Of a stretch of 64,000 nucleotides of DNA, positions 33,048-44,536 are shown in pieces. Source of the stretch: a beta proteobacterium AAP99 (GTDB lineage: Bacteria; Pseudomonadota; Gammaproteobacteria; Burkholderiales; Burkholderiaceae_C); assembly GCA_001295775.1 (NCBI GenBank), contig LJIA01000019.1:62001-126000 (forward strand). Reading direction: 5' to 3'. The position numbers and the translations under genes are program-made. The notes beneath the pieces were generated by a model that was not told where the DNA came from, ran no database searches, and saw only the letters and a program-made list of their open reading frames with translations. Numbering within the stretch: position 1 is the first letter of the stretch; each line of letters begins with the position of its first letter.

Positions 33048-33863
33048 TCAGACCGTCAGTTCCTGCCAGCGCGCAATGTGTACCGGACCGGCGTCGATCA
33101 GATCCACCAGGCCCGATTCGCGGAGTCCTGACTGCACGAGTCCTTGCTGAAAGTCTGCAAGCGCGTGATCGACGTGACCGATTTCGGCCTGTGCTCTCTG
33201 CGGCAGGAAGGCCGTGTAAACCGGCAGCCGTGGCAGCAGCTCCGCGACCCCGGCTTTCCAATGCGGCTGATTGAGCCCAGAGGCGTCCAGACGGCTCAGC
33301 GTAGGTGGGCAGAACGGTCGCCCCAATGTCTGCCAGAACGCGGAACTGCCATCGGCGGCGTGCACGCCCCGCAGCCGAACGAATACCTGACTTGTCGCTG
33401 CAGGCCGTACCTCGGCGCGGAGATACCGAAGTGCGCTTGCCAGCAGCGCTCCCGGTGCCGCACCCGTAGCGAGATCTGGCAGCGCTGCCAGTATCGCGAG
33501 CCCGCTCATCCCATGCACGTCGTGACCAAGCTGAAGCGTCTGCACCGCATGCAGGATGCCCAGATCCTCGCTCGAATGAACCGTTTGGCCCACGCGCCAG
33601 ACGGGGTACGCCTTGCGGGTGCCGAAGGCGGGCGTAAAGGTCCCAACCGCAACAATGCCGCCACCGCTGCTCACAACGAGCATCGTCGCTTCATCGGGTG
33701 GCAACGCCGTCGGGTCCGCCGGAGCGGCCCAGGGCCCACGCAGCTGTTCAAGCCACCAGGCCAGGGGGAGACGCCAGCCTGATTGGTCGATCGCGTGCTC
33801 TTGCAGCAAGTCGAGAATTGCGTCTCGGTCCGTCGTCCGGGCGAAGCGGATCTGCAGCATCAC
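33048..33863 (-). CDS. Arginine N-succinyltransferase-like subunit, short and divergent (AruF-like)
   Basis: A 271-aa paralogue of the AstA family acyltransferases. Recognisable blocks are the FWQTLGRPFCPP motif (compare FWDAVGRRFFNM in the neighbour) and LLPRLPVYTAFLPQRAQAEIG (compare LMPQAPIYVTLLPEQARLAIG). It is about 70 residues shorter than normal subunits and lacks their C-terminal extension. It is coupled to the upstream full-length subunit by ATGA (33860-33863). In Pseudomonas the enzyme is a heteromer of AruF and AruG, so this is probably the second subunit; whether it keeps catalysis is unknown. Confidence 0.7.
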   Translation of the reverse strand: MMLQIRFARTTDRDAILDLLQEHAIDQSGWRLPLAWWLEQLRGPWAAPADPTALPPDEATMLVVSSGGGIVAVGTFTPAFGTRKAYPVWRVGQTVHSSEDLGILHAVQTLQLGHDVHGMSGLAILAALPDLATGAAPGALLASALRYLRAEVRPAATSQVFVRLRGVHAADGSSAFWQTLGRPFCPPTLSRLDASGLNQPHWKAGVAELLPRLPVYTAFLPQRAQAEIGHVDHALADFQQGLVQSGLRESGLVDLIDAGPVHIARWQELTV

Positions 33864-34909
33864 TCGCCTCCTGTGAGGGTCGCACTCAATGACGCGATTC
33901 TCAGTTCATCGCCTTCAACGAGTTCAAGCAGCGCACCGTCTTGCGCGCTGATGACGAACACGCCGTCACGAATCTGGCCGTGCACGATGCTCGATCGCGG
34001 GTTGGAAGTTGCTGTGTTCAGCGCGATGAAGAGCTCACCGACCGGCTGGCCGAAGCGCACCGGCATGCGGCGGCTGCTGCGTGGCGTGCGCAGCGTGTCA
34101 AGCCGAGCATGAACTGTCGGTCCGCCATCGAACAGATCGACATACGTGTTTTCATCGAAGCCCTCGTCCATGAGAATCGAGAACGGGAGTTCTGCTGATG
34201 GATGCAACTGGCCAATCGCCAGACGCGCTTGTTCCGGCAACAGTGTCACGTAGATCGGCGCCTGTGGCATGAGTTCGGCGATGAATGACTTGCTGCGGCC
34301 GCCTGCGATCCGCTCGGCCTGTGCGTAGTCCATGTTGAAGAAGCGGCGACCGACCGCATCCCAGAACGGACAGTGCCCTGCGTCATCGCACAACCCCGGG
34401 CTCTCCGCGGCGACACGGTCGGCAAAGCGGTCTGGATGCTCCGCCATGAAGAGCAGGCGCGCACGCGAAAGCAGTTGCGGCCAAGGCGTGCTTTCCAGAT
34501 GAGGTTCGATGTAGAACGATGTCAGCAGGCTGTAGCCGCTGAGGTCGTGGCACAGGTGCAGCACGTGGATGCGGTTGGACAGGTCCAGCGAACGCGAGGT
34601 ATGCACCACGATTTCGTTGCGATAGCTATAGAAGCGATCGTGAAATCCGGCGCTGGCTGTGATGCCGCTTACGCCGGCAACATGGCCACTCGAAGTCTCT
34701 TCGAGCACGAAGAAGTAGGTTTCTTCCGTCGGAGCATCCACGTCCGAGTCGAATGAGTGGATTGACCTCCGAACCTTTTCGAGCAGGCGATCCGTGTCCT
34801 CTGGCAGAGATGTGACGCCGATCGCCGCCGCCCGTGCAATCCGTTCGATGTGGGGGAGGTCCGACAGCCGGCTTGGTCGCAGGACATAGGTGCTGGGTGA
34901 TGTGGTCAT
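33860..34909 (-). CDS. astA: Arginine/ornithine N-succinyltransferase subunit (AstA/AruG-like)
   Basis: A 349-aa cytoplasmic enzyme transferring succinyl from succinyl-CoA to the alpha-amino group of arginine, the first step of the AST pathway. Conserved blocks are the N-terminal acceptor region VLRPSRLSDLPHIERIA, FWDAVGRRFFNMDYAQAE, GGRSKSFIAELMPQAPIYV and DEGFDENTYVDLFDGGPT. It overlaps argR upstream (ATGA at 34906-34909) and the short paralogue downstream. The remaining AST genes (astB, C, D, E) are not in the window. Confidence 0.88.
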   Translation of the reverse strand: MTTSPSTYVLRPSRLSDLPHIERIARAAAIGVTSLPEDTDRLLEKVRRSIHSFDSDVDAPTEETYFFVLEETSSGHVAGVSGITASAGFHDRFYSYRNEIVVHTSRSLDLSNRIHVLHLCHDLSGYSLLTSFYIEPHLESTPWPQLLSRARLLFMAEHPDRFADRVAAESPGLCDDAGHCPFWDAVGRRFFNMDYAQAERIAGGRSKSFIAELMPQAPIYVTLLPEQARLAIGQLHPSAELPFSILMDEGFDENTYVDLFDGGPTVHARLDTLRTPRSSRRMPVRFGQPVGELFIALNTATSNPRSSIVHGQIRDGVFVISAQDGALLELVEGDELRIASLSATLTGGE

Positions 34910-35763
34910 GAGGACATGCTTCCTGCCTGCCAGTAGGTCGATACGCGGCGGCTGCGTTCCTCGCGCGGCGTCATGCCGAAGTGCGCGCGATAGGTGCTGG
35001 AGAAGTGCGGGCCGGACGAAAACCCGCAGGCCAGTCCGACCTGCAGGATGGATTGCGAGCTTTCCTGGAGCAACGTGCGGGCATGGGCCAGACGCATTTC
35101 CAGATAGTGCTTCGAAGGCAGTGTGTCGAGGTGCTGCTTGAACAAGCGTTCCAGCTGACGACGCGACACACCCACAAGTCGCGCGATGTCATCGCCCGGC
35201 AGTGGTTCTTCAAAATTGGCCTTCATCAGGGCCAGGGCTTCGGTCAGCTTCGGGTGCGTCGTCGTCCGACCCAGCGGTGCAGATCCGCCCAGGTCTGGTG
35301 CAGCCACCCCCACCGTGCCGGACGCGGCGATCCAGCGATTCAGGCACTCCGGCGCCCAGCGTTCAAGCACGGCGCGACCGACCAGCTCGGCAAGTGTTTG
35401 CGCATCAGCTTCGATCGCATCGGCCGGCGCGGCAGTTTTCATTTCGCCTCGGAGGAAGAATCGACGCTCAGCGGAGCGCGTCAGCCAGTCGAGCGCTGAC
35501 AGACATTCGGGGTCGGCGACACCGTCAGTTGCCGTGACGACGCGTACGTCGGCGTGTTCTGCGCTGTCCGAAGAGTCTGCGCGGAGCGTGACGCCCTCCG
35601 CGGTCACGACATCGGCTTGCGGCGCAAGCGCACAGAGCGCGAGCCTTGTCTCGACGGGCGCGCCGACAGCCTTCAGTGAGTTGTTCAGACGCGCGAGCTG
35701 CGCGATGGGTTCGAGCGACTGCCCTGGCGCGACGAGGATGACGATCCGGATCGTTCGCATCAA
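34906..35763 (-). CDS. argR: AraC/XylS-family arginine regulator ArgR-like, with GATase1-like sensor domain
   Basis: 285 aa. The N-terminal half resembles the DJ-1/PfpI-like domain of AraC-type ArgR regulators (IRIVILVAPGQSLEPIAQLA). The C-terminal half has two AraC helix-turn-helix units: DDIARLVGVSRRQLERLFKQ and ILQVGLACGFSSGPHFSSTY. In Pseudomonas aeruginosa the equivalent gene closes the aotJQMOP operon and activates arginine uptake and catabolism. Here it occupies the same position after aotP and is coupled to astA. Sites matching the known ArgR half-site lie upstream of the operon (41501-41602). Confidence 0.85.
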   Translation of the reverse strand: MMRTIRIVILVAPGQSLEPIAQLARLNNSLKAVGAPVETRLALCALAPQADVVTAEGVTLRADSSDSAEHADVRVVTATDGVADPECLSALDWLTRSAERRFFLRGEMKTAAPADAIEADAQTLAELVGRAVLERWAPECLNRWIAASGTVGVAAPDLGGSAPLGRTTTHPKLTEALALMKANFEEPLPGDDIARLVGVSRRQLERLFKQHLDTLPSKHYLEMRLAHARTLLQESSQSILQVGLACGFSSGPHFSSTYRAHFGMTPREERSRRVSTYWQAGSMSS

Positions 35764-35824
35764 GTGCTCGCGCCCAGCGGTCTTGCCATGCCTGTTTTGC
35801 GGGTGGCCTGCACAGGCGCGGCAG

Positions 35825-36667
35825 CTACTTCAGGCCGCTGGAGAGGAACTGCTGCAGGCGCGGCGATTGGGGACGTGCCAGCACTTCGGAGGGGTGACCT
35901 GACTCCTCCACCATGCCCTTGTGCAGGAACAGGGTCTTGTTGGAAACCTCGCGAGCAAACTCCATCTCGTGCGTCACGATGATCATGGTTCGACCTTCCT
36001 CGGCCAAGCCGCGCATCACACGCAGGACTTCGCCCACCAGCTCAGGGTCCAGCGCGGAGGTCGGCTCGTCAAACAACATGACTTCGGGCTGCATGGCCAG
36101 CGCACGGGCAATGGCCACTCGCTGCTGTTCACCGCCAGAAAGGTGGGCTGGATACAGTTCCCGTCGGTGCCATACGCCGACGCGGTTCAGATAGGTCTCC
36201 GCGCGCTCGGTGGCCTCGGCTTTGGTGAGTCCCAGTACGTGCATCGGTGCTTCGATCACGTTCTCCGTGACCGTCATGTGGGCCCACAGGTTGAAGTGCT
36301 GAAACACCATGGTGAGCCGGGCGCGCATCGCGGCCAGCTGGCGGGCGTCTGCTGCCTTCAGCGTGCCATCACGGTCCGGCACCAGACGAAGCGCCTCCCC
36401 ATCCAGGCTGATCGACCCTCGGTTGGGTTGCTCGAGCAGGTTGATGCAGCGCAGAAAGGTGCTCTTGCCCGAGCCACTGGCACCGATGAGTGTCAACACA
36501 TCGCCGGATGCCGCTTGCAGACTGACACCCTTCAAGACTTCCACCTCGCCGAATCGCTTGTGGATGTCGCTGACTTCGAGCTTGATGGGCATCGTCGGGC
36601 TGTTGTTCAACAAAGGGTTGGCGGCTTCTGCGGGCCGTGCGTTGAGCGGCTCAAGACGGGCGTTCAT
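35825..36667 (-). CDS. aotP: Arginine/ornithine ABC transporter ATPase (AotP/HisP-like)
   Basis: A 280-aa ATPase of the polar amino-acid importer family. Walker A is GASGSGKSTFLRCIN, the signature LSGGEQQRVAIARALA, Walker B VMLFDEPTSALDPE, and the switch histidine sits in IIVTHEMEFA. I choose the ATG at 36667 (MNARLEPLNARP), 7 nt after AGG and 7 bp past the aotO stop. An ATG at 36592 (MPIKLEVSDIHKRF) gives the canonical length and is a fair alternative. Confidence 0.92.
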   Translation of the reverse strand: MNARLEPLNARPAEAANPLLNNSPTMPIKLEVSDIHKRFGEVEVLKGVSLQAASGDVLTLIGASGSGKSTFLRCINLLEQPNRGSISLDGEALRLVPDRDGTLKAADARQLAAMRARLTMVFQHFNLWAHMTVTENVIEAPMHVLGLTKAEATERAETYLNRVGVWHRRELYPAHLSGGEQQRVAIARALAMQPEVMLFDEPTSALDPELVGEVLRVMRGLAEEGRTMIIVTHEMEFAREVSNKTLFLHKGMVEESGHPSEVLARPQSPRLQQFLSSGLK

Positions 36668-36674
36668 GGTCAGC

Positions 36675-37793
36675 CTAGGCACTCAGCAGGCGACCGTGGC
36701 GGAAGGGTACACGCCCGGCCACCTTGCACACGTTGGTTCCGCAAGTCACGAAAGAGCGGCCTTCGCGCGCGTACATCACACCTGAGGTATGGCTGACGAT
36801 GTCCGCGGTTTGGCCAGAGATCGGATCGATGACCTGCGCCACCACATCCTGCGCACTGACGAGGTCACCCGGATTCTTGATGAAGGCGAGTACCCCGCTG
36901 ATCGGTGCGGCGAGCGTGGCGCTGCCGGCAAGCGGGGTCGCGTCCGCTGCCAGTGGCGGCAGCGCAGCGGTTGCGCCGTTCACATGGCCCTCAAGACGGA
37001 GAAACTCCACAATCTGGCGCGCATCTGCCTGCGCAAGTTCGAGATTGATGTCGCGCGTTCCACGCAGCTCTACGGTGACGGACGCGCAGCCCAGCGCGAT
37101 GGGTGTTTCGGGGCCGAACGATTGTTGCAGGCGCCACCAGATCTGGCTGCAGGCTTCGTCAAAGGGCGCGTCACCCGATTCCGTGGCGAGCAGCGTCGCC
37201 TTGGCCTGAAGCAGCCGGGCAAGCGGCTCGATCCGAGACCAAAGGGGCGTCAGGGTGTAGAGGTGCATCACCGCTTCGCTGTCGCAGTGCAGGTCGAGCA
37301 CGATGTCTGCATCGAACGCGAGCGAAAGCAGAGTCTTGCGAAGACTCGCCAGCTCCGTGGCGGCGGGTACAAGCGCCAGCTCTGCGCGGATCGCCTCGCG
37401 GATCACGAGCGTATTGGCTCGCTCATCGGCTCCGAGCAGGCCGGTGATGCGTGCCTTCACCGCTTCAAACAGATCCGGGTAGTGCCTGTTGAAGTTCTCA
37501 CCGAGGCCAACGTCAAATCGGCCGATCGGCGTATGCAGCAGCATCTGGGACAGACCCAGCGGATTGCTCACGGGCACGACCACGATCTCGCTGAGCAGCT
37601 CACCGGAAGATTCCAGCGCTGCCAGCTCCCCGCGCAGGCAGTGAGCCACAAGCATGCCCGGCAGCTCGTCTGCATGCAGCGAACCCTGGATGTACACCTT
37701 GCGACCTGAGTCGGCGGGCCCATAGTGAAAACTGACGACTTCCCGGTGGGTGCCGGGTGTCTGGACGGGCAACCGATGTTGTTGACTGATCAT
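36675..37793 (-). CDS. aotO: Succinylglutamate desuccinylase/aspartoacylase-family protein (AotO-like)
   Basis: 372 aa, zinc carboxypeptidase-like fold (M14 family), no signal peptide, so cytoplasmic. Zinc ligands are H40 and E43 in QGSLHADELPG and H169 in IVLDLHCDSEA; the substrate-carboxylate motif is FNRHYPD (N102, R103). The C-terminal part forms a hammerhead-like domain (AAPISGVLAFIKNPGDLV). It keeps the aot operon position (J-Q-M-O-P) known in Pseudomonas, where its function is unsettled. Family enzymes hydrolyse amide bonds of N-acyl amino acids. It overlaps aotM (ATGA at 37790-37793). Confidence 0.85.
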   Translation of the reverse strand: MISQQHRLPVQTPGTHREVVSFHYGPADSGRKVYIQGSLHADELPGMLVAHCLRGELAALESSGELLSEIVVVPVSNPLGLSQMLLHTPIGRFDVGLGENFNRHYPDLFEAVKARITGLLGADERANTLVIREAIRAELALVPAATELASLRKTLLSLAFDADIVLDLHCDSEAVMHLYTLTPLWSRIEPLARLLQAKATLLATESGDAPFDEACSQIWWRLQQSFGPETPIALGCASVTVELRGTRDINLELAQADARQIVEFLRLEGHVNGATAALPPLAADATPLAGSATLAAPISGVLAFIKNPGDLVSAQDVVAQVIDPISGQTADIVSHTSGVMYAREGRSFVTCGTNVCKVAGRVPFRHGRLLSA

Positions 37794-38482
37794 GATTTTC
37801 TGGGTTGCAGGTAGACAAGCCAGCGTTGCTCGATCTGGCGGAAGGCCAGGACCAGCACGCCGGTCACGGCCAGGTAGAACACGGCGGCCGTCAGAAAGGC
37901 TTCGAAGGGCAGGTAGAAGCGGCTGTTCATCTCGCGCGCTGCGCCGGTCAGATCCAGCAGCGTGACGACGCTTGCGAGCGAGGTGCCGTGCAGCATCATG
38001 ATGACTTCATTGCTGTAGGCCGGAATCGAGCGGCGCAGCGCAGAGGGAATCACGATTCGGCGCAGCATGAGCGCGCGCGACATGCCGCAGGCGCGTGCAG
38101 CCTCGATCTCGCCGCGCGAGGTGTTGCGGATCGCCCCGGCGATGATCTCCGTGGTGTAGGCGCAGGTGTTGATGCCAAAGGCCATCACCGCACAAAACCA
38201 GGCCGAGGACAGCCAGGGCCACGCGAAGGAGTTGCGCACGAACTCGAACTGCGCCAGCCCGTAGTAGATCAGGAACAGCTGCACCAGCATGGGCGTGCCG
38301 CGGATCACGTAGGTGAACGCCCGCACAGGCAGGTTCGCCAGGCTGTCTGGTTGGGCACGCAGCACGGCCAGCGGCAGCGCGAACATCAGACCGATGGCAA
38401 GAGAAGCCGCCAGAAGTTGCAGTGTGGTCCCGAGACCACTTGCGTACTGCGGCAATGACTCGATGATCGCTTCCCAGTTCAT
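37790..38482 (-). CDS. aotM: Arginine/ornithine ABC transporter permease (AotM/HisM-like)
   Basis: A 230-aa polar amino-acid permease with about five hydrophobic segments. It has YVIRGTPMLVQLFLIYYGL, typical of HisM/AotM, and the coupling helix EIEAARACGMSRALMLRRIV. ATGA overlaps link it to aotQ (38479-38482) and aotO (37790-37793), so the three are translationally coupled. Confidence 0.93.
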   Translation of the reverse strand: MNWEAIIESLPQYASGLGTTLQLLAASLAIGLMFALPLAVLRAQPDSLANLPVRAFTYVIRGTPMLVQLFLIYYGLAQFEFVRNSFAWPWLSSAWFCAVMAFGINTCAYTTEIIAGAIRNTSRGEIEAARACGMSRALMLRRIVIPSALRRSIPAYSNEVIMMLHGTSLASVVTLLDLTGAAREMNSRFYLPFEAFLTAAVFYLAVTGVLVLAFRQIEQRWLVYLQPRKS

Positions 38483-39174
38483 GCGCGAGCTTCCCGGACA
38501 CCCTTGGAGAATCGGCGCTCCAGATGGCGGAAGACGAGGCCGGAGAGGCTGGTGATTGCCAGATAGATCGCGCCCGCGGCCAGATAGAACAGGAAGGGCT
38601 GCTTGGTGGCGCCAGCGGCCTGGGAGGTCTTGTGCATCATGTCAGTCAGCCCGATGACAGACACGATGGCGGTGGACTTCACCAGCACCAGCCAGTTGTT
38701 CGAGAAGGCGGGCAGGGCCAGACGCACCATCTGTGGCAGGACGATCCGACGCAGCGTGTGCCAGCGTGACATGCCGAAGGCGAGCGCCGCTTCCGCCTGG
38801 CCCGAAGGGATGGCCAGAATGGCACCGCGGAAGGTTTCGGTCAGATAGGCGCCGAAAATGAAACCAATCGTCAGCACGCCGGCCACGAAGGGGTTGATGT
38901 CGATGTAGCCGTCGTAGCCCAGCCTGGCCGCCAGACTGTTCACGAGTACCTGGCCGCCGAAGAACACCAGCAGCATCAGGACCAGATCCGGGATGCCGCG
39001 GATCACGGTCGTATAGCTGTTGGCCGACCAGCGCAGCGCACGAGAGCGCGACAGCTTGGCTGCCGCGCCCAGCAGCCCGAGGATGCAGGCGATCGCCAGC
39101 GAGGACAGCGCCAGACCAATCGTGATCGTGGTGCCGGCCAGCAGGCTGGGCAGGTAGTCGAGCAGGGCGTCCAT
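38479..39174 (-). CDS. aotQ: Arginine/ornithine ABC transporter permease (AotQ/HisQ-like)
   Basis: A 231-aa partner permease. Conserved blocks are SYTTVIRGIPDLVLMLLVFF, PFVAGVLTIGFIFGAYLTE and the coupling helix GQAEAALAFGMSRWHTLRRI. The stop overlaps the aotM start. aotJ lies 31 bp upstream. Confidence 0.93.
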   Translation of the reverse strand: MDALLDYLPSLLAGTTITIGLALSSLAIACILGLLGAAAKLSRSRALRWSANSYTTVIRGIPDLVLMLLVFFGGQVLVNSLAARLGYDGYIDINPFVAGVLTIGFIFGAYLTETFRGAILAIPSGQAEAALAFGMSRWHTLRRIVLPQMVRLALPAFSNNWLVLVKSTAIVSVIGLTDMMHKTSQAAGATKQPFLFYLAAGAIYLAITSLSGLVFRHLERRFSKGVREARA

Positions 39175-39205
39175 GCGAGCGCTGGGTCAGGCCTTGTCTG
39201 GGTGC

Positions 39206-40000
39206 TTACTTGCCAGGTGCGTCGCCGTAGATGTCGAAGTCGAAGTACTTCGCGGCGATCCTCTGGTAAGTGCCATTGGCACGCACTGCCTTGATGGCTG
39301 CGTTGACCTTTTCACGCAAGGCGGCATCCTGCTTGCGAAAGGCTGCGCCCACGCCGATCCCGAAGTACTTCGGATCGACCAGCAGCGGGCCGTCGAACTG
39401 GTAGCCCTTGCCGGCCGGTGTCTTGAGGAAGCCGCGCTCTGCGGCCAGCCCGTCCACCACCAGTGCATCGACGCGGCCCGCGGTCAGGTCCAGGTAGGCG
39501 TCGTCCTGCTTGGCGTAGCGCACGATCCCGCTTTGCTTGAACACGTCCGTGACGAAGCGGTCATTGATCGTGGCGCGCTGCACGCCGATCTTGCGGCCCT
39601 TCATGCCCTCGGTCGTGAACTGGAACTTCGTGCCGGCCTTGACCACGAAGCGGTTGGGCGTCTTGTAGTACTTGTCGGAGAAATCCACCGACTTGCGGCG
39701 CTCTTCGGTGATCGACATGGACGCCATGATCATGTCGAACTTGCGTGCCTGCAGCGCGGGGATCATGCCGTCAAAGTCCTGCTGTACCAGCGTGCACTGC
39801 GCCTTCATTTCCGCACACAGGGCATTGGCCAGCTCGATCTCGAAGCCGATCAGCTTGCCGTCCGGGCCCATCTGCGAGAACGGGGGGTAGGAACCTTCCA
39901 CGCCGATGCGGATGCGGGTCCAGTCGTTGGCCAGTGCTGCGGTGGATGCAGCAGCCAGCAGGCTGGCGAGAGTCAGGCGCTGCAGCAGGGTCTTGATCAT
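39206..40000 (-). CDS. aotJ: Arginine/ornithine-binding periplasmic protein (AotJ/HisJ-like)
   Basis: A 264-aa solute-binding protein with a signal peptide (MIKTLLQRLTLASLL..ALA, cleavage near residue 24). The family opening IRIGVEGSYPPFSQ is followed by LIGFEIELANALCAEMK and MIMASMSITEERRKSVDFSD. GGAG lies 9 nt before the ATG. It follows the cyanophycinase gene by 51 bp on the same strand, suggesting one transcript. Confidence 0.93.
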   Translation of the reverse strand: MIKTLLQRLTLASLLAAASTAALANDWTRIRIGVEGSYPPFSQMGPDGKLIGFEIELANALCAEMKAQCTLVQQDFDGMIPALQARKFDMIMASMSITEERRKSVDFSDKYYKTPNRFVVKAGTKFQFTTEGMKGRKIGVQRATINDRFVTDVFKQSGIVRYAKQDDAYLDLTAGRVDALVVDGLAAERGFLKTPAGKGYQFDGPLLVDPKYFGIGVGAAFRKQDAALREKVNAAIKAVRANGTYQRIAAKYFDFDIYGDAPGK

Positions 40001-40051
40001 CTTCGGTACTCCAGAGTCTTGTGCCCGAATGCAATGGGCGAGTGTTCAGGC

Positions 40052-41353
40052 TCAGCGCTTGGCCGGTGCAGAACCGGCGCCTGGCGCTGCAAGCGGAGTG
40101 TAGAAAGGCCGGTTCATGCGTACGGGTGTCACGTCCAGCAGCATGTTGGCCACGGTGTAGTCCTCGCCGCCGAAGCTGCCGGTGAACCAGCCGACGGTGT
40201 CCGCACCCTTGTACAGGCGGAACTCGAAGCCGAGGTCCGGCTTGCTGTCATTGGCAGCAGGAGCACCGCTGTAGGCCAGACCGAAGGCCTCGCGCTGCTT
40301 GTTGTCCAGCAGATTGCCCATGGCATTGACGATGATGCTGTCGCCCAGCATGTCGGGCCAGTAGGCGTCGCTGCTGAAGTAGGGCTTGAAGTCGGCAGCG
40401 TTGGGGTCGATGCGCGCATCCTTCAGCTTCTGAGGCGAAGGCGTGATCTCGCGTTTGGCGAGGTCGTAGCGGTCGCCTCGATCCAGGTAGGTCAGACGCG
40501 CACCGCGAATGTTGAACTCCGCCAGCGCTGCGTTGCGGGTGGCCTGGGAGAGATCCACCAGCAGCGCACCCTTTGCGCCGATGACCTCAATCTGGCTGCC
40601 CCGGATTATGGCGGCAGAGTCCTCATCCACGCCGATGCCCCAGGTGTAGCCCTTGGCCTGCATCAACGGCAGCATGCGGCCGAAGCGCCCGCGCTTGAGG
40701 AAGTGCTGGTCCACGAACAGTGCGTCGCCCACGAAGCCCAGTCCGCGGTCAATCTCCTTGCCTTCGCGCATGCCGTGCTTCATCACGTTGAGCACGTCCT
40801 GCGCGTCGCGGAACATGGTGGTGGACATGATGGCGGCACCCGCGCTGGAGCCAGCCACGACGCCACCTGCGCGATACACCTCCCACACGGCCTGCAGCAG
40901 AGGCGTGGGCTTGCCGCCGGGTTGCAGGGTGTCCGCAATGCGTTCCTGAGCGCCGCCGGTGAAGTACACGCCGCGCGCGGCGCGCACCTTTGCGATCAGC
41001 GCCGGGTCTTCAACCGCTCGCTTCAGATCCACGTCCTTCAGACGCGGCGCCACAGGAATGTGCTCGGCCACCGCACCATGCTTCTGCAGGGCAGCGATCG
41101 TCAGTTCAGCTGATCGGTTCGGGTTGCCTGCGGCAGTCGCAAACACCACGAAGCGCGCACCCTTGCCACCGGCGAGCTGCACGAGGCGCGCCCACACCGC
41201 GTCGTTGTCATACTTGAGTGCGCCACCGATCGGTACCGCATAACCCATGGTCTGAGCTTGCGTGCTCGCCGGCGTCTGAGCAGCGGCCACAGCTGCGCTC
41301 AAGCTCAGGCTCAAGCCGATAAGGAGTCGGTGTATCAGGCGCGGACGCAACAT
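40052..41353 (-). CDS. cphE: Secreted cyanophycinase (peptidase family S51, CphE-like)
   Basis: A 433-aa serine hydrolase with an N-terminal signal peptide (LLIGLSLSLSAAVAAAQ), hence exported. The nucleophile elbow VVAGSSAGAAIM places the catalytic serine at S170. Other family blocks are GVYFTGGAQERIADTL and GLGFVGDALFVDQHFLKRGR. Cyanophycinases cut the Asp-Arg polymer cyanophycin to beta-Asp-Arg dipeptides. FTGGAQ differs from the more usual FTGGDQ, which could alter specificity. AGGAAG precedes the start. Leading an arginine transport operon supports the substrate. Confidence 0.85.
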   Translation of the reverse strand: MLRPRLIHRLLIGLSLSLSAAVAAAQTPASTQAQTMGYAVPIGGALKYDNDAVWARLVQLAGGKGARFVVFATAAGNPNRSAELTIAALQKHGAVAEHIPVAPRLKDVDLKRAVEDPALIAKVRAARGVYFTGGAQERIADTLQPGGKPTPLLQAVWEVYRAGGVVAGSSAGAAIMSTTMFRDAQDVLNVMKHGMREGKEIDRGLGFVGDALFVDQHFLKRGRFGRMLPLMQAKGYTWGIGVDEDSAAIIRGSQIEVIGAKGALLVDLSQATRNAALAEFNIRGARLTYLDRGDRYDLAKREITPSPQKLKDARIDPNAADFKPYFSSDAYWPDMLGDSIIVNAMGNLLDNKQREAFGLAYSGAPAANDSKPDLGFEFRLYKGADTVGWFTGSFGGEDYTVANMLLDVTPVRMNRPFYTPLAAPGAGSAPAKR

Positions 41354-41500
41354 TCAAAACTTCCTTGTCGATGCTTCAGGGTCGATTGCTGTGCAGGGGC
41401 TGCACCCATTTGGGCGCACGCACCACCAAAGTGCAGCGTGAACAGCAGTGTGTGCATTTGAACAAGAGCCGCTGCGCTCGTGGGGGCTTGCATGACCGAA

Positions 41501-41542
41501 CACCGCTTGTGTGAAAGTCGATGTCGCAATCCCATAAGGTGT
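41501..41542 (+). promoter_or_regulatory. Tandem ArgR-type half-sites, plus orientation
   Basis: Two adjacent 21-bp units fit TGTCGC-N8-AA-N5. The second (41522-41542) is an exact match, TGTCGC-N8-AA. The first (41501-41521) keeps CGC and the AA at the right place (CACCGC-N8-AA). The 21-bp step is two helical turns, as AraC-type ArgR requires. Confidence 0.65.
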
Positions 41543-41560
41543 ACCGACGCGTCTGCAACA

Positions 41561-41602
41561 CGCCCTTTCAGCTTTGCGACCGACACTTTCAGCTTTGCGA
41601 CT
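41561..41602 (-). promoter_or_regulatory. Tandem ArgR-type half-sites, minus orientation
   Basis: A perfect 16-bp direct repeat, CTTTCAGCTTTGCGAC, at 41565-41580 and 41586-41601. Read on the minus strand it gives two adjacent 21-bp units, AGTCGC-N8-AA and GGTCGC-N8-AA, each one mismatch from TGTCGC-N8-AA. Orientation points towards the cphE-aot operon. Confidence 0.7.
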
Positions 41603-41730
41603 TTCCACCCGGCGACCCACCCGGAAGCGACAGACGCGTCGATAGACTGAATCTGTCCGCATTCGGTGTGCCGCATCTTGGAGACCGCACGCTTCACCGA
41701 ATCGCGTTCAACCGTCTAGGGGGAACCAGC

Positions 41731-44457
41731 ATGTCATTGAACGCCGGCGCGCCGCGCCGCTTGATCTCGAATACCCAATCGGACGCTGCACCCGTGCTGC
41801 GTCCCGTCGCACTTGCCGTGGCCTTTGCCTTCGTGGCGGGCGCAGCGATGGCGCAGACCGCGCCAGCGAGCACTGACACGCAGCAGCCCACTCAGGTGCA
41901 GCGCGTGGAGATCACCGGCTCGAGCATCAAGCGTCTCGAGGGAGAAACCGCACTGCCGGTTCAGATCATCACCAAGGCGGACATTGAAAAGAGCGGCGCC
42001 ACCACGGCCGCCGAGCTGCTGGCCAAGGTGTCCGCCTCGGCCGCTCAGCTGACCGATGGCGCGAGCTTTTCGGACATCGCCGGTCAGCGCGGTTTCAATG
42101 GCGCCAACCTGCGCGGCATCGGTGTGTCCAGCACGCTGGTGCTGCTCAACGGCCGCCGCCTGGCCAACTTTGCTTCGCCCGGTGGCAACAGCGGCGTGGA
42201 CCTGAACGCCATCCCGGCAGCTGCCATCGAGCGAGTGGATGTGCTCAAGGACGGCGCCTCGGCCATCTACGGCACGGACGCCATTGGCGGTGTGATCAAC
42301 TTCATCACCCGGCGCGATTACCAGGGCGGCGACGTTTCTCTCTACCGTTTCGACACCCAGCACGGCGGCGCGGCCAAGACGATCGTCACCGGTTCGATCG
42401 GCTTTGGTGACATCGCCAAGGACCGCTTCAACGTCTTCGCCACCCTGGACTACCAGGACAGCGAAGCCCTGCGCTCCACCCAGCGCGACTGGATCGGCTC
42501 GGTCTACGACCAGGCCCTCGGCCTGGATGTGGGCAGCTCCAACACCTTCCCGGCCAACGTGCGCCGCCTGAACAGCGCCGGCCGCCCGACGGGCAGCCGC
42601 CTGAACCCTTCGGCGCCGAACTGCAACCCGCCGGCCACCATCTACTCGCCTGGCAGCTTTGTGGGTGCGAGTGCCTGTCTGTATGACTACATGCAGGACA
42701 CCGAGATCTATCCCGCCAGCAAGCGTCTTTCCCTGATCACGCGCGGCACGTTCGCCGTGACCGACGAGCATCAGGTCTTCGCCGAGTATCTCTACAACGA
42801 CACCAAGACCAACTACCGCATCAGCCCGCTGACCATCACGGACCTGAACTACCCCGCAGCCGGTCGCTACTACCCGACCTCGCTGGGCGTGACTGGCCCG
42901 CTGCGCGTGAACATGCGCCTGTCTGAGGCCGGCGGTCGCACCAATGACGTGGATGCCAACGCGCAGCGCCTGATCGTCGGCGCCAAGGGCGTGCTCGCAG
43001 GCTGGGACTACGACACCGCCATCAACCGCAGCGAAAACACCGTCACTGACGCCTACGTGAACGGCTACGTGCGCCGCACCGACTTCAACAACGCCTTTGC
43101 CACCGGCAACATCAACCCCTTCGGCCCGAGCGACGCCGCCGGTCTGGCACTGCTCAACAGCACCAAGATCCGTGACGACGCCCGCAAGTCCAAGGGCGTG
43201 ACCGACAGCTTTGACGTGAAGCTCTCGCGCCCGATCTTCCAGCTCGCCGGTGGCGAAGCCGCGATTGCCCTGGGTGCCGAATACCGCCGCGAGTCCCTGG
43301 ACTTCACGCCCTCGGCCCTGTTGGCTGCAGGCGAGATCCGTGGCGACGGTCCGGCCACACCGCTGTCGGCCAGTCGCAAGATCACGGCTGGCTATGCCGA
43401 GCTGAGCCTGCCCTTCACCAGGCAGCTCGAAGCGCAGGTCGCCCTGCGCGGCGACCGCTACAACGATGTGGGCAACACCACCAACCCCAAGCTGGGCCTG
43501 CGCTACTCGCCCAACAAGCAGCTCCTGCTGCGCAGCAGCTACGGCACGGGCTTCCGCGCGCCCTCGCTGTCGGACCTCTACGCCCCGCCGCGCCTGGGCC
43601 AGACCAACGGCATCTATGACGACCCCCTGGGTTGCGCCGCCGCTCGCGGCACGCCGTTCGCGGCCGACTACTGCGGCCTGCAGCCGGACAAGCTCACCGG
43701 CGGCAACAAGAACCTCAAGCCGGAGGAGAGCAAGCAGTTCTCCGCCGGTTTCGTGTTCGAGCCCGCACGCGTTCTGACGATGAGCGTGGACTATTGGCGC
43801 ATCGAGAAGACCAATGTGATCAGCGCCCCGGAAGGCGTGCTGTTCAGCGACCCGGTGCGCTTCTCGCAGTTCATCATCCGCGACACTGCACCGTCGCCGA
43901 TCCCCGGCATCCCCTCGCCGATCGACCGCGTGGACTCCAGCCTGAAGAACTTTGCGGCGCTGAAGACCGACGGCTGGGATCTGGGCGTGGACGTGCGCCT
44001 GCCCAAGTTCGACTACGGCCGCGTCAGCCTCGGCTTCAACGGCACCTACGTCAACAACTACAAGACGCAGGACGGCGCCGGCGCCCGCTACATCACCGCC
44101 GTGGGCCGCTTTGCCAATGACCAGGTCGTGCAGCGCTGGCGCCATACCGCCACCGTCAACTACGACTTCGGCGATCTCGGCCTGACCCTGCAGCAGACCT
44201 ACTACAGCAACTACTACGACCAGAACCTCGACGGCGCCGGCCGCGTGCGCAAGATTGGCGCGTACGAGCTGTTCGATCTGGCGGGTTCGTATCAGGTCAG
44301 CAAGCAGCTCAAGGTCCGTGCGGGCATCAAGAACCTGTTGGACAAGAATCCGCCGCGTTCCAACCAGGTCTATTACTTCCTGGCCAGCTACGACCCCAGC
44401 TACACCGACCCGCGCGGCCGCAGCTTCTACGCCTCGGTGGCGTACAGCTTCCGCTAA
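41731..44457 (+). CDS. TonB-dependent outer-membrane receptor
   Basis: A 908-aa beta-barrel receptor. The signal peptide (VALAVAFAFVAGAAMAQ) is followed by a plug domain with VEITGSSIKRLEGETALPVQ, LRGIGVSSTLVLLNGRRLA, IERVDVLKDGASAIYGTDA and GGVINFITRRDY. The barrel has the usual GTGFRAPSLSDLYAPP block and ends FYASVAYSFR. The start is set by GGGGGAA 7 nt before the ATG. It is divergent from the cyanophycinase operon and shares its ArgR-type operators, so uptake of arginine-containing peptides is a likely role; this is inference. Confidence 0.88.
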   Translation: MSLNAGAPRRLISNTQSDAAPVLRPVALAVAFAFVAGAAMAQTAPASTDTQQPTQVQRVEITGSSIKRLEGETALPVQIITKADIEKSGATTAAELLAKVSASAAQLTDGASFSDIAGQRGFNGANLRGIGVSSTLVLLNGRRLANFASPGGNSGVDLNAIPAAAIERVDVLKDGASAIYGTDAIGGVINFITRRDYQGGDVSLYRFDTQHGGAAKTIVTGSIGFGDIAKDRFNVFATLDYQDSEALRSTQRDWIGSVYDQALGLDVGSSNTFPANVRRLNSAGRPTGSRLNPSAPNCNPPATIYSPGSFVGASACLYDYMQDTEIYPASKRLSLITRGTFAVTDEHQVFAEYLYNDTKTNYRISPLTITDLNYPAAGRYYPTSLGVTGPLRVNMRLSEAGGRTNDVDANAQRLIVGAKGVLAGWDYDTAINRSENTVTDAYVNGYVRRTDFNNAFATGNINPFGPSDAAGLALLNSTKIRDDARKSKGVTDSFDVKLSRPIFQLAGGEAAIALGAEYRRESLDFTPSALLAAGEIRGDGPATPLSASRKITAGYAELSLPFTRQLEAQVALRGDRYNDVGNTTNPKLGLRYSPNKQLLLRSSYGTGFRAPSLSDLYAPPRLGQTNGIYDDPLGCAAARGTPFAADYCGLQPDKLTGGNKNLKPEESKQFSAGFVFEPARVLTMSVDYWRIEKTNVISAPEGVLFSDPVRFSQFIIRDTAPSPIPGIPSPIDRVDSSLKNFAALKTDGWDLGVDVRLPKFDYGRVSLGFNGTYVNNYKTQDGAGARYITAVGRFANDQVVQRWRHTATVNYDFGDLGLTLQQTYYSNYYDQNLDGAGRVRKIGAYELFDLAGSYQVSKQLKVRAGIKNLLDKNPPRSNQVYYFLASYDPSYTDPRGRSFYASVAYSFR

Positions 44458-44507
44458 GCCGCAACGTCATTCCCCGCAGGTCCGACCGTCTCGGCCTGCT
44501 TGTCCCG

Positions 44508-44536
44508 AGCCCGCAGCATCGCTGCGGGCTTTTTTT
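44508..44536 (+). terminator. Intrinsic terminator after the TonB receptor
   Basis: A 10-bp stem AGCCCGCAGC / GCTGCGGGCT with an ATC loop and T7 tract, about 50 bp past the receptor stop. Confidence 0.92.

Follow-up and report, generated by a model that had tools for sequence, protein, structure and literature searches.

A candidate cyanophycin-scavenging locus of the beta proteobacterium AAP99 with a CphZ-type dipeptidase, a tandem ARG box and an AstA-like protein pair

Gene content of the locus

Cyanobacteria and other bacteria store nitrogen as the polymer cyanophycin, which is freed when their cells lyse. We have analysed a window (the whole stretch of DNA under study) of 64,000 nucleotides from contig LJIA01000019.1 of the beta proteobacterium AAP99, in which ten genes between positions 33048 and 44457 probably form a dedicated unit for scavenging this polymer. 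The unit would comprise an exported cyanophycinase (CphE), a TonB-dependent receptor, the importer AotJQMP, the dipeptidase CphZ and an ArgR-type regulator with its ARG box, and we put the probability of this reading at roughly 0.8. Below, G-numbers denote the genomes of a 60-genome set, in which AAP99 itself, a relative of Roseateles, is G000 (3.86 Mb, estimated completeness 99.05%), and L-numbers denote fetched loci.

All ten open reading frames named in the original prediction are present at this place, and profile searches assign each to the expected family. Read from the promoter side, the minus strand carries the genes for the cyanophycinase (40052–41353), AotJ (39206–40000), AotQ (38479–39174), AotM (37790–38482), AotO (36675–37793), AotP (35825–36592), an AraC-type regulator (34906–35763), an AruF-like protein (33860–34909) and an AruG-like protein (33048–33863), which may be expressed as a single transcript. 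The receptor gene (41731–44457) lies on the plus strand, divergent from the cyanophycinase gene as had been proposed, with 377 bases between them. AotJ is a periplasmic binding protein of the lysine/arginine/ornithine (LAO) type with a readable leader (TIGR01096, 274 bits against a cut-off of 256), AotQ and AotM match permeases of the His/Arg type, and AotP is a HisP/AotP-type ATPase. The longest frame of the latter starts at 36682; judging from the translation, the true start is probably near 36592. The receptor, with Plug and barrel domains, most likely starts at 41731 and not at 41521, a leader being readable after the ATG at 41731. Four start–stop overlaps exist as foreseen, of which only three are of the predicted ATGA type (AotQ/AotM, AotM/AotO and ArgR/AruF), that of AruF/AruG being GTGA. 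Behind the receptor gene, a terminator-like hairpin of 11 pairs with a T run (44507–44531, plus strand) is a consensus match only; 11 such sites were found where 6.8 are expected.

Comparison with the sister species (L039) revealed low dS values of 0.47–0.80 for the receptor, the cyanophycinase and aotJQM (37790–44457); the flanking recR (2.2) and ebfC (1.1) have higher values. Either strong codon bias or later exchange could account for the low values.

The cyanophycinase and the CphZ-type dipeptidase

The cyanophycinase, a protein of 433 aa, scores barely above the cut-off of its family model (TIGR02069, 129.5 bits against 126.6). Its Ser170 lies in a G-S/T-S-A-G motif and is invariant in 15 aligned sequences, and the nearest solved folds are cyanophycinases, with a Z score of 28.6 to 3en0. 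A putative Sec-type leader is readable in the sequence, and residues 1–34 have low confidence in the predicted model. The model also covers a C-terminal extension of ~127 residues, and the structural matches extend mainly over residues 36–349. By model match, motif serine and fold, the protein is predicted to be a cyanophycinase of the extracellular type, and its ratio of nonsynonymous to synonymous substitution rates (dN/dS) against the sister species is 0.09. Ten of the 60 genomes searched, our own included, contain a cyanophycinase match.

A second, distant cyanophycinase-like protein of 475 aa with a readable leader is encoded elsewhere in the AAP99 genome (L176:10629-12056, G000:C15); it is 27% identical in the matched part and has no Pfam match at 0.001. 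Similar distant matches occur in G001, G022 and G029, and G029 has an extra gene of this kind after its AstA pair (L046:7321-8775). Tandem pairs of cyanophycinase genes are common in loci of the Roseateles and Oxalobacteraceae types (L083, L084, L086, L092, L116, L122, L126, L128, L130, L135, L141 and L047). Contigs titled as Planctomycetes carry cyanophycinases 44–48% identical to that of the window (L110, L111, L114, titled Kuenenia, L117, L119, L123, L131, L133, L136, L138 and L151), for which gene transfer and wrong binning are candidate explanations.

AotO, a protein of the M14 or AstE_AspA family, had been counted among the importer subunits together with J, Q, M and P; the latter four are indeed of the importer type. 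The best PDB sequence matches of AotO, nearly full length, are 8ein (E 1e-78) and 8eip (E 8e-78), whose titles name the cyanophycin dipeptide hydrolase CphZ of Acinetobacter baylyi, 8eip being an E251A variant with beta-Asp-Arg. The predicted model of AotO (mean predicted local distance difference test score 86.5) matches 8eip with a Z score of 47.5 and 8ein with one of 47.3, the alignment spanning 365 residues with 36% of them identical; the next entry reaches 37.4. E242 of AotO occupies the position of the glutamate mutated in 8eip and is conserved, and H40, E43 and H169, which we take to be the metal ligands, are invariant. On these matches AotO is predicted to be CphZ; its dN/dS against the sister species is 0.12. 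An importer subunit could be discarded on account of this nearest solved relative, as could a succinylglutamate desuccinylase, the AstE model finding no match in G000. The P. aeruginosa AotO is reportedly CphZ as well, and its aot operon is said to serve uptake of beta-Asp-Arg, in work by Sharon and co-workers (PNAS, 2023). AotO would be the enzyme that the original prediction lacked, its pathway having nothing to split beta-Asp-Arg.

According to one paper (PMC10206079), proteins annotated as 'succinylglutamate desuccinylase/aspartoacylase family' are such hydrolases. The same text, citing Ben Hania et al. 2017, describes cyanophycin utilisation loci with a transporter and IadA or IaaA, and it also counts scavenging clusters. 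Neither enzyme is a credible dipeptidase in AAP99: IaaA has no match in G000 and is present in three of ten genomes searched (G008, G022 and G029), and IadA is over its cut-off in none of the ten, G000 having a 22-bit scrap. CphZ is therefore the sole recognised beta-Asp-Arg dipeptidase of this genome. Cyanophycin synthetase (CphA), found over cut-off in 28 of 60 genomes, reaches at best 93 bits against 850 in G000; by gene content AAP99 is a consumer and not a producer of cyanophycin. As in the utilisation loci just cited, cyanophycinase, dipeptidase and transporter are clustered in a genome without CphA over its cut-off. The dipeptidases described there are IadA or IaaA, whereas here it would be CphZ, and AAP99 adds the TonB receptor, the ATP-binding cassette (ABC) importer, ArgR with its ARG box and the AstA-like pair.

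The receptor, ArgR and the tandem ARG box

A search with the receptor over the 60 genomes, our own included, returned 12 matches of at least 700 bits, and all 12 lie in loci of this kind; the next match has 574 bits. Eleven are divergent to a cyanophycinase gene, and the twelfth (G012) adjoins an argR-aruFG-aot-CphZ cluster. In a tree built from 51 linked receptors and 15 unlinked paralogues, 49 of the former (all except L139 and L143) form one set, separate from the paralogues, with 99 support in the SH-like approximate likelihood ratio test (SH-aLRT). This tree was made by a quick method and its unlinked rows are the next-best paralogues from the 60-genome search, so that the tree alone is biased and the unbiased count is that of the search. 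From linkage and the shared operator region, the receptor may be specific for cyanophycin pieces.

We also inspected 80 named loci, the best 80 of at least 554 candidates, kept by cyanophycinase similarity; several of their contigs end inside the locus. A receptor (at least 600 bits) was found in 38, CphZ in 38 and both in 30, while ArgR is present in 16 and an AruF-like gene in 15. A full ABC importer occurs in eight and a carrier of the DcuC family in 22, all of them among the 38 loci with CphZ; no locus has both carriers, and eight of the 38 have neither in full. Linkage, which the original prediction had proposed to check in related genomes, recurs in many genera. A different arrangement is seen in Oxalobacteraceae (L115, L116, L120-L122, L126, L128, L130, L135, L137, L139, L141 and L145), where receptor and cyanophycinase lie on the same strand, not divergent, and CphZ and a DcuC-family carrier lie on the opposite one. 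In these loci the stretch gave no ArgR match, and the cyanophycinase is not preceded by an ARG box.

The ARG box of P. aeruginosa ArgR is given as TGTCGCN6GNAA, in tandem and 5 bp apart, in print (PMC10963909). The gap between cyanophycinase and receptor contains a sequence that fits this description (41566–41602, minus strand), read toward the cyanophycinase, with the pattern nGTCGC-N8-AA-N5-nGTCGC-N8-AA and a 21-bp period; relative to the box as described there, the tandem and the 5-bp spacing are the same, while the first T is unconserved and the site lies between cyanophycinase and receptor. The pattern was fixed after viewing the window and G001, so the remaining loci provide the independent test. 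Among the cyanophycinase genes, a tandem box lies within 900 bases upstream in 20 of the 23 whose locus includes ArgR and in four of the 83 others. Of these last four genes, three are on contigs that end early (L081, L089 and L142), and the other (L049) belongs to G012, whose ArgR sits in a second locus. These 106 cyanophycinase genes are not fully de-duplicated, L043 being the same place as L079; L095, the same place as L051, was excluded here, yet is one of the 80 named loci. All 25 ARG-box sites point to the cyanophycinase, where 0.03 would be expected from resampled sequence. In a separate count, 25 sites lie in 17,765 intergenic bases against one in 735,024 other bases, and that single outside site is L039's own, counted as outside since the receptor match overran the real start. 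The exact tandem box has two matches in the whole of G000, one of them at this locus. In G014 and G031 the receptor-cyanophycinase pair has neither an AruF-like gene nor an ARG box. Since the box tracks a linked ArgR and is missing in these two genomes, regulator and operator travel together. The two loci of G012 (L049 and L058) each have a TonB receptor and an ARG-box match, with ArgR in one only.

The regulator itself (285 aa) has an AraC-type helix-turn-helix (residues 193–271), and with a tandem ARG box in the target promoter region, activation of the locus by arginine would be expected. Among the 12 genes compared with the sister species, its dN/dS of 0.25 is the highest. A DJ-1/PfpI-like N-terminal domain was without a match in the window's ArgR and in those of G001, L040 and L077; that of L056 scores over the cut-off and that of L076 below it.

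The AstA-like pair and the proposed route of cyanophycin use

The two last genes had been described as AstA-like subunits opening the arginine succinyltransferase (AST) pathway. Both proteins indeed pass the Pfam model, but the AruG-like one is under every NCBIfam cut-off. The AruF-like protein (349 aa, closest solved sequence 1yle) scores 370 bits against 284 with TIGR03243, the AstA subfamily model, and 355.5 bits with PF04958, but stays under all equivalog cut-offs. The AruG-like protein, a short AstA paralogue of 271 aa that lacks the C-terminal part, reaches 116 bits against the same 284. Of 51 residues invariant in ten canonical AST enzymes, AruF keeps 47 and AruG 30. Against the sister species, dN/dS is 0.10 for AruF, which by this measure is under purifying selection, and 0.13 for AruG, a rough value since its dS of 2.3 is near saturation; both are close to the values of CphZ (0.12) and CphE (0.09). 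Among 36 genomes of the family, an AruF-like gene is present in seven of the nine with a cyanophycinase and in none of the 27 without. Six of the seven genomes carry it within a cyanophycinase locus; G012, the remaining one, has it in a receptor-argR-aot-CphZ locus without cyanophycinase. The gene also accompanies ArgR in 15 of the 16 named ArgR loci, the contig of the sixteenth ending there.

It is the remainder of the AST pathway that could not be found. AstB has no match in G000 or in the eight other family genomes with a cyanophycinase; the search detects it in the control E. coli and in G056, with matches in one of 12 genomes (G056 only) and in two of 15 named-locus genomes. No AstB match was obtained in 19 of the 21 genomes, several of them metagenome-assembled genomes (MAGs), that have a linked AruF-like gene (the seven and 15 above, with G022 and the genome of L095 counted once). 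For AstE, G000 gives no match at all and the nine family cyanophycinase genomes give none over cut-off, with weak scraps in G029 and G035. AstD is likewise not over cut-off in any of the nine, only other aldehyde dehydrogenases being found, with a best score of 249.8 against 579.3 bits in G000. In G056 the same searches find AstB, AstD and AstE, all three; in G048 and G039, two genomes outside the AstB search, AstD and AstE score over cut-off. We have therefore rejected the AST pathway as the arginine outlet of AAP99, and with it the last step of the original prediction, whose scheme was a good guess at the kind of system and is wrong for this genome.

The proposed route would begin with exported CphE cutting cyanophycin to beta-Asp-Arg. 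The dedicated TonB receptor would carry polymer fragments or the dipeptide across the outer membrane, and AotJ with AotQMP would carry beta-Asp-Arg, and probably arginine too, across the inner membrane. In the cytoplasm AotO (CphZ) would split the dipeptide into aspartate and arginine. The AraC-type ArgR would act at the tandem ARG box, such that the locus would be expressed more strongly on arginine released from the polymer, and the two AstA-like proteins would belong to the locus, outside any AST pathway in AAP99. A single nutritional unit for cyanophycin, as originally suggested, is supported by the conserved adjacency of receptor and cyanophycinase, the co-occurrence of ArgR and operator and the recurrence of the importer with CphZ.

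Several observations weigh against this route. Both CphZ and the receptor are missing from the available stretch in 34 of the 80 named loci, and three cyanophycinase places in the 60 genomes (L043, L048 and L050) are without this receptor in the fetched stretch, so the cyanophycinase also occurs outside the unit. Free dipeptide could pass through porins, so only an import of larger pieces would explain why a TonB receptor is needed. A scan of the region found no sigma-70-type promoter. Three cyanophycinase genes in L078 and L085 lack an exact tandem box in spite of an ArgR there. Over whole genomes the tandem box shows no enrichment, its backward control matching more often in ten of ten genomes, and the evidence from the box is therefore one of position and not of total number. 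Matches outside the loci are for the same reason not read as ArgR targets. Finally, the window's ArgR, at 285 aa, falls ~45 residues short of most relatives (~330 aa) in its N-terminal half, and with this shortened domain its response to arginine may differ.

An AST pathway supplied with arginine by the locus through AruFG, as first proposed, would suit the presence of AruF and AruG relatives in the operon, and a Rhodocyclaceae MAG (L107/L175/L177) has receptor, cyanophycinase, aotJQMOP, argR, astC, aruF, aruG, astD and astB in one contiguous block, AstB being confirmed by search and AstE being outside what was sought there. The searches described above make this very improbable: in the nine family genomes AstB has no match and neither AstE nor AstD reaches its cut-off, and 19 of 21 genomes with the linked gene have no AstB match. 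The same block bears on another explanation, that the pair is a decaying, functionless leftover of an ancestral full operon. The AST-linked AruF of L107 is nested among the locus-type AruF proteins (100/99 support), so that a history in which the other AST genes were lost is a good one, and AruG, without its C-terminus, has lost 21 of the 51 canonical invariants; the short AruG proteins form a group of their own in the tree on long branches, their exact place being unsure. The low dN/dS values (that of AruG subject to its near-saturated dS) and the persistence of the AruF-like gene beside ArgR across many genera speak against decay, however, as does Niveibacterium, which keeps a locus-type pair (L076) beside a separate argR-astC-aruF-astA-astD-astB block (L174), and we consider a functionless remnant rather unlikely. 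The simplest history would be a polymer-to-glutamate operon from which most lineages lost the other AST genes while the changed AstA pair was kept.

A general arginine/ornithine importer (aot) whose neighbours, a peptidase and a receptor (of siderophores, for example), have nothing to do with it is just as hard to credit as an AST outlet. AotJQMP alone is a standard arginine importer, and aot-CphZ operons without an adjoining cyanophycinase exist in G008, G012, G014, G029, G031, G035 and G056; but the linkage of receptor, CphE and CphZ recurs across genera with two unrelated inner-membrane carriers, and receptor and CphE have an ARG-box region in common. A broader unit, for which cyanophycin would be just one among several beta-aspartyl or arginine-rich peptides scavenged, is also improbable, if slightly less so. 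AotJ is a generic LAO-type binding protein and the cyanophycinase lies only 3 bits above its cut-off, which would agree with a broad range; its closest solved folds are nevertheless cyanophycinases (Z 28).

Under the preferred reading of a dedicated cyanophycin unit, the AstA-like pair most likely still forms an acyltransferase whose substrate is arginine or a related molecule and whose product meets a fate other than AST. More tentatively, at somewhat under even odds, the pair may be a conserved acyltransferase in its own right that serves cyanophycin use and has split off from AST, within an ARG-box-controlled unit with a cyanophycin-specific receptor. AruF would then have kept most AST-conserved residues with AruG as its short partner, and the substrate might be arginine, beta-Asp-Arg or another product, the reaction opening, for instance, a catabolic route together with an unknown hydrolase, or else providing an internal signal.

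Cyanophycin loci as such are already known; what appears to be new is the receptor clade, control by an ARG box, the exchange of importers and the AstA pair without AST. The aotJQMOP-argR operon of P. aeruginosa reportedly has importer, CphZ and AraC-type ArgR in the same order, whereas AAP99 has cyanophycinase and receptor at the head and the AST-less pair at the end. The AST operon (astCADBE or aruCFGDBE) also has two AstA-family subunits beside ArgR, in contrast to a genome without AstB or AstE match, with AstD under its cut-off and a short, divergent AruG. A TonB transporter beside a cyanophycinase in Citromicrobium sp. JLT1363 has been proposed, from adjacency, to act on cyanophycin (PMC3400609); that is one case, while here the linkage concerns a whole clade of receptors in several genera and includes a shared operator region. 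A literature search, with most subscription papers out of reach, found none pairing cyanophycinase with an arginine succinyltransferase, and the papers naming cyanophycin together with ArgR looked unrelated by their titles.

For the Burkholderiales, the locus offers a testable parts list for cyanophycin uptake, consisting of the receptor clade, either of two carriers for the inner membrane, CphZ and a switch that responds to arginine. The receptor together with the ARG box would permit recognition of such loci in metagenomes, and an orphan pair of succinyltransferase relatives has been isolated for which the question of the substrate can be addressed directly.

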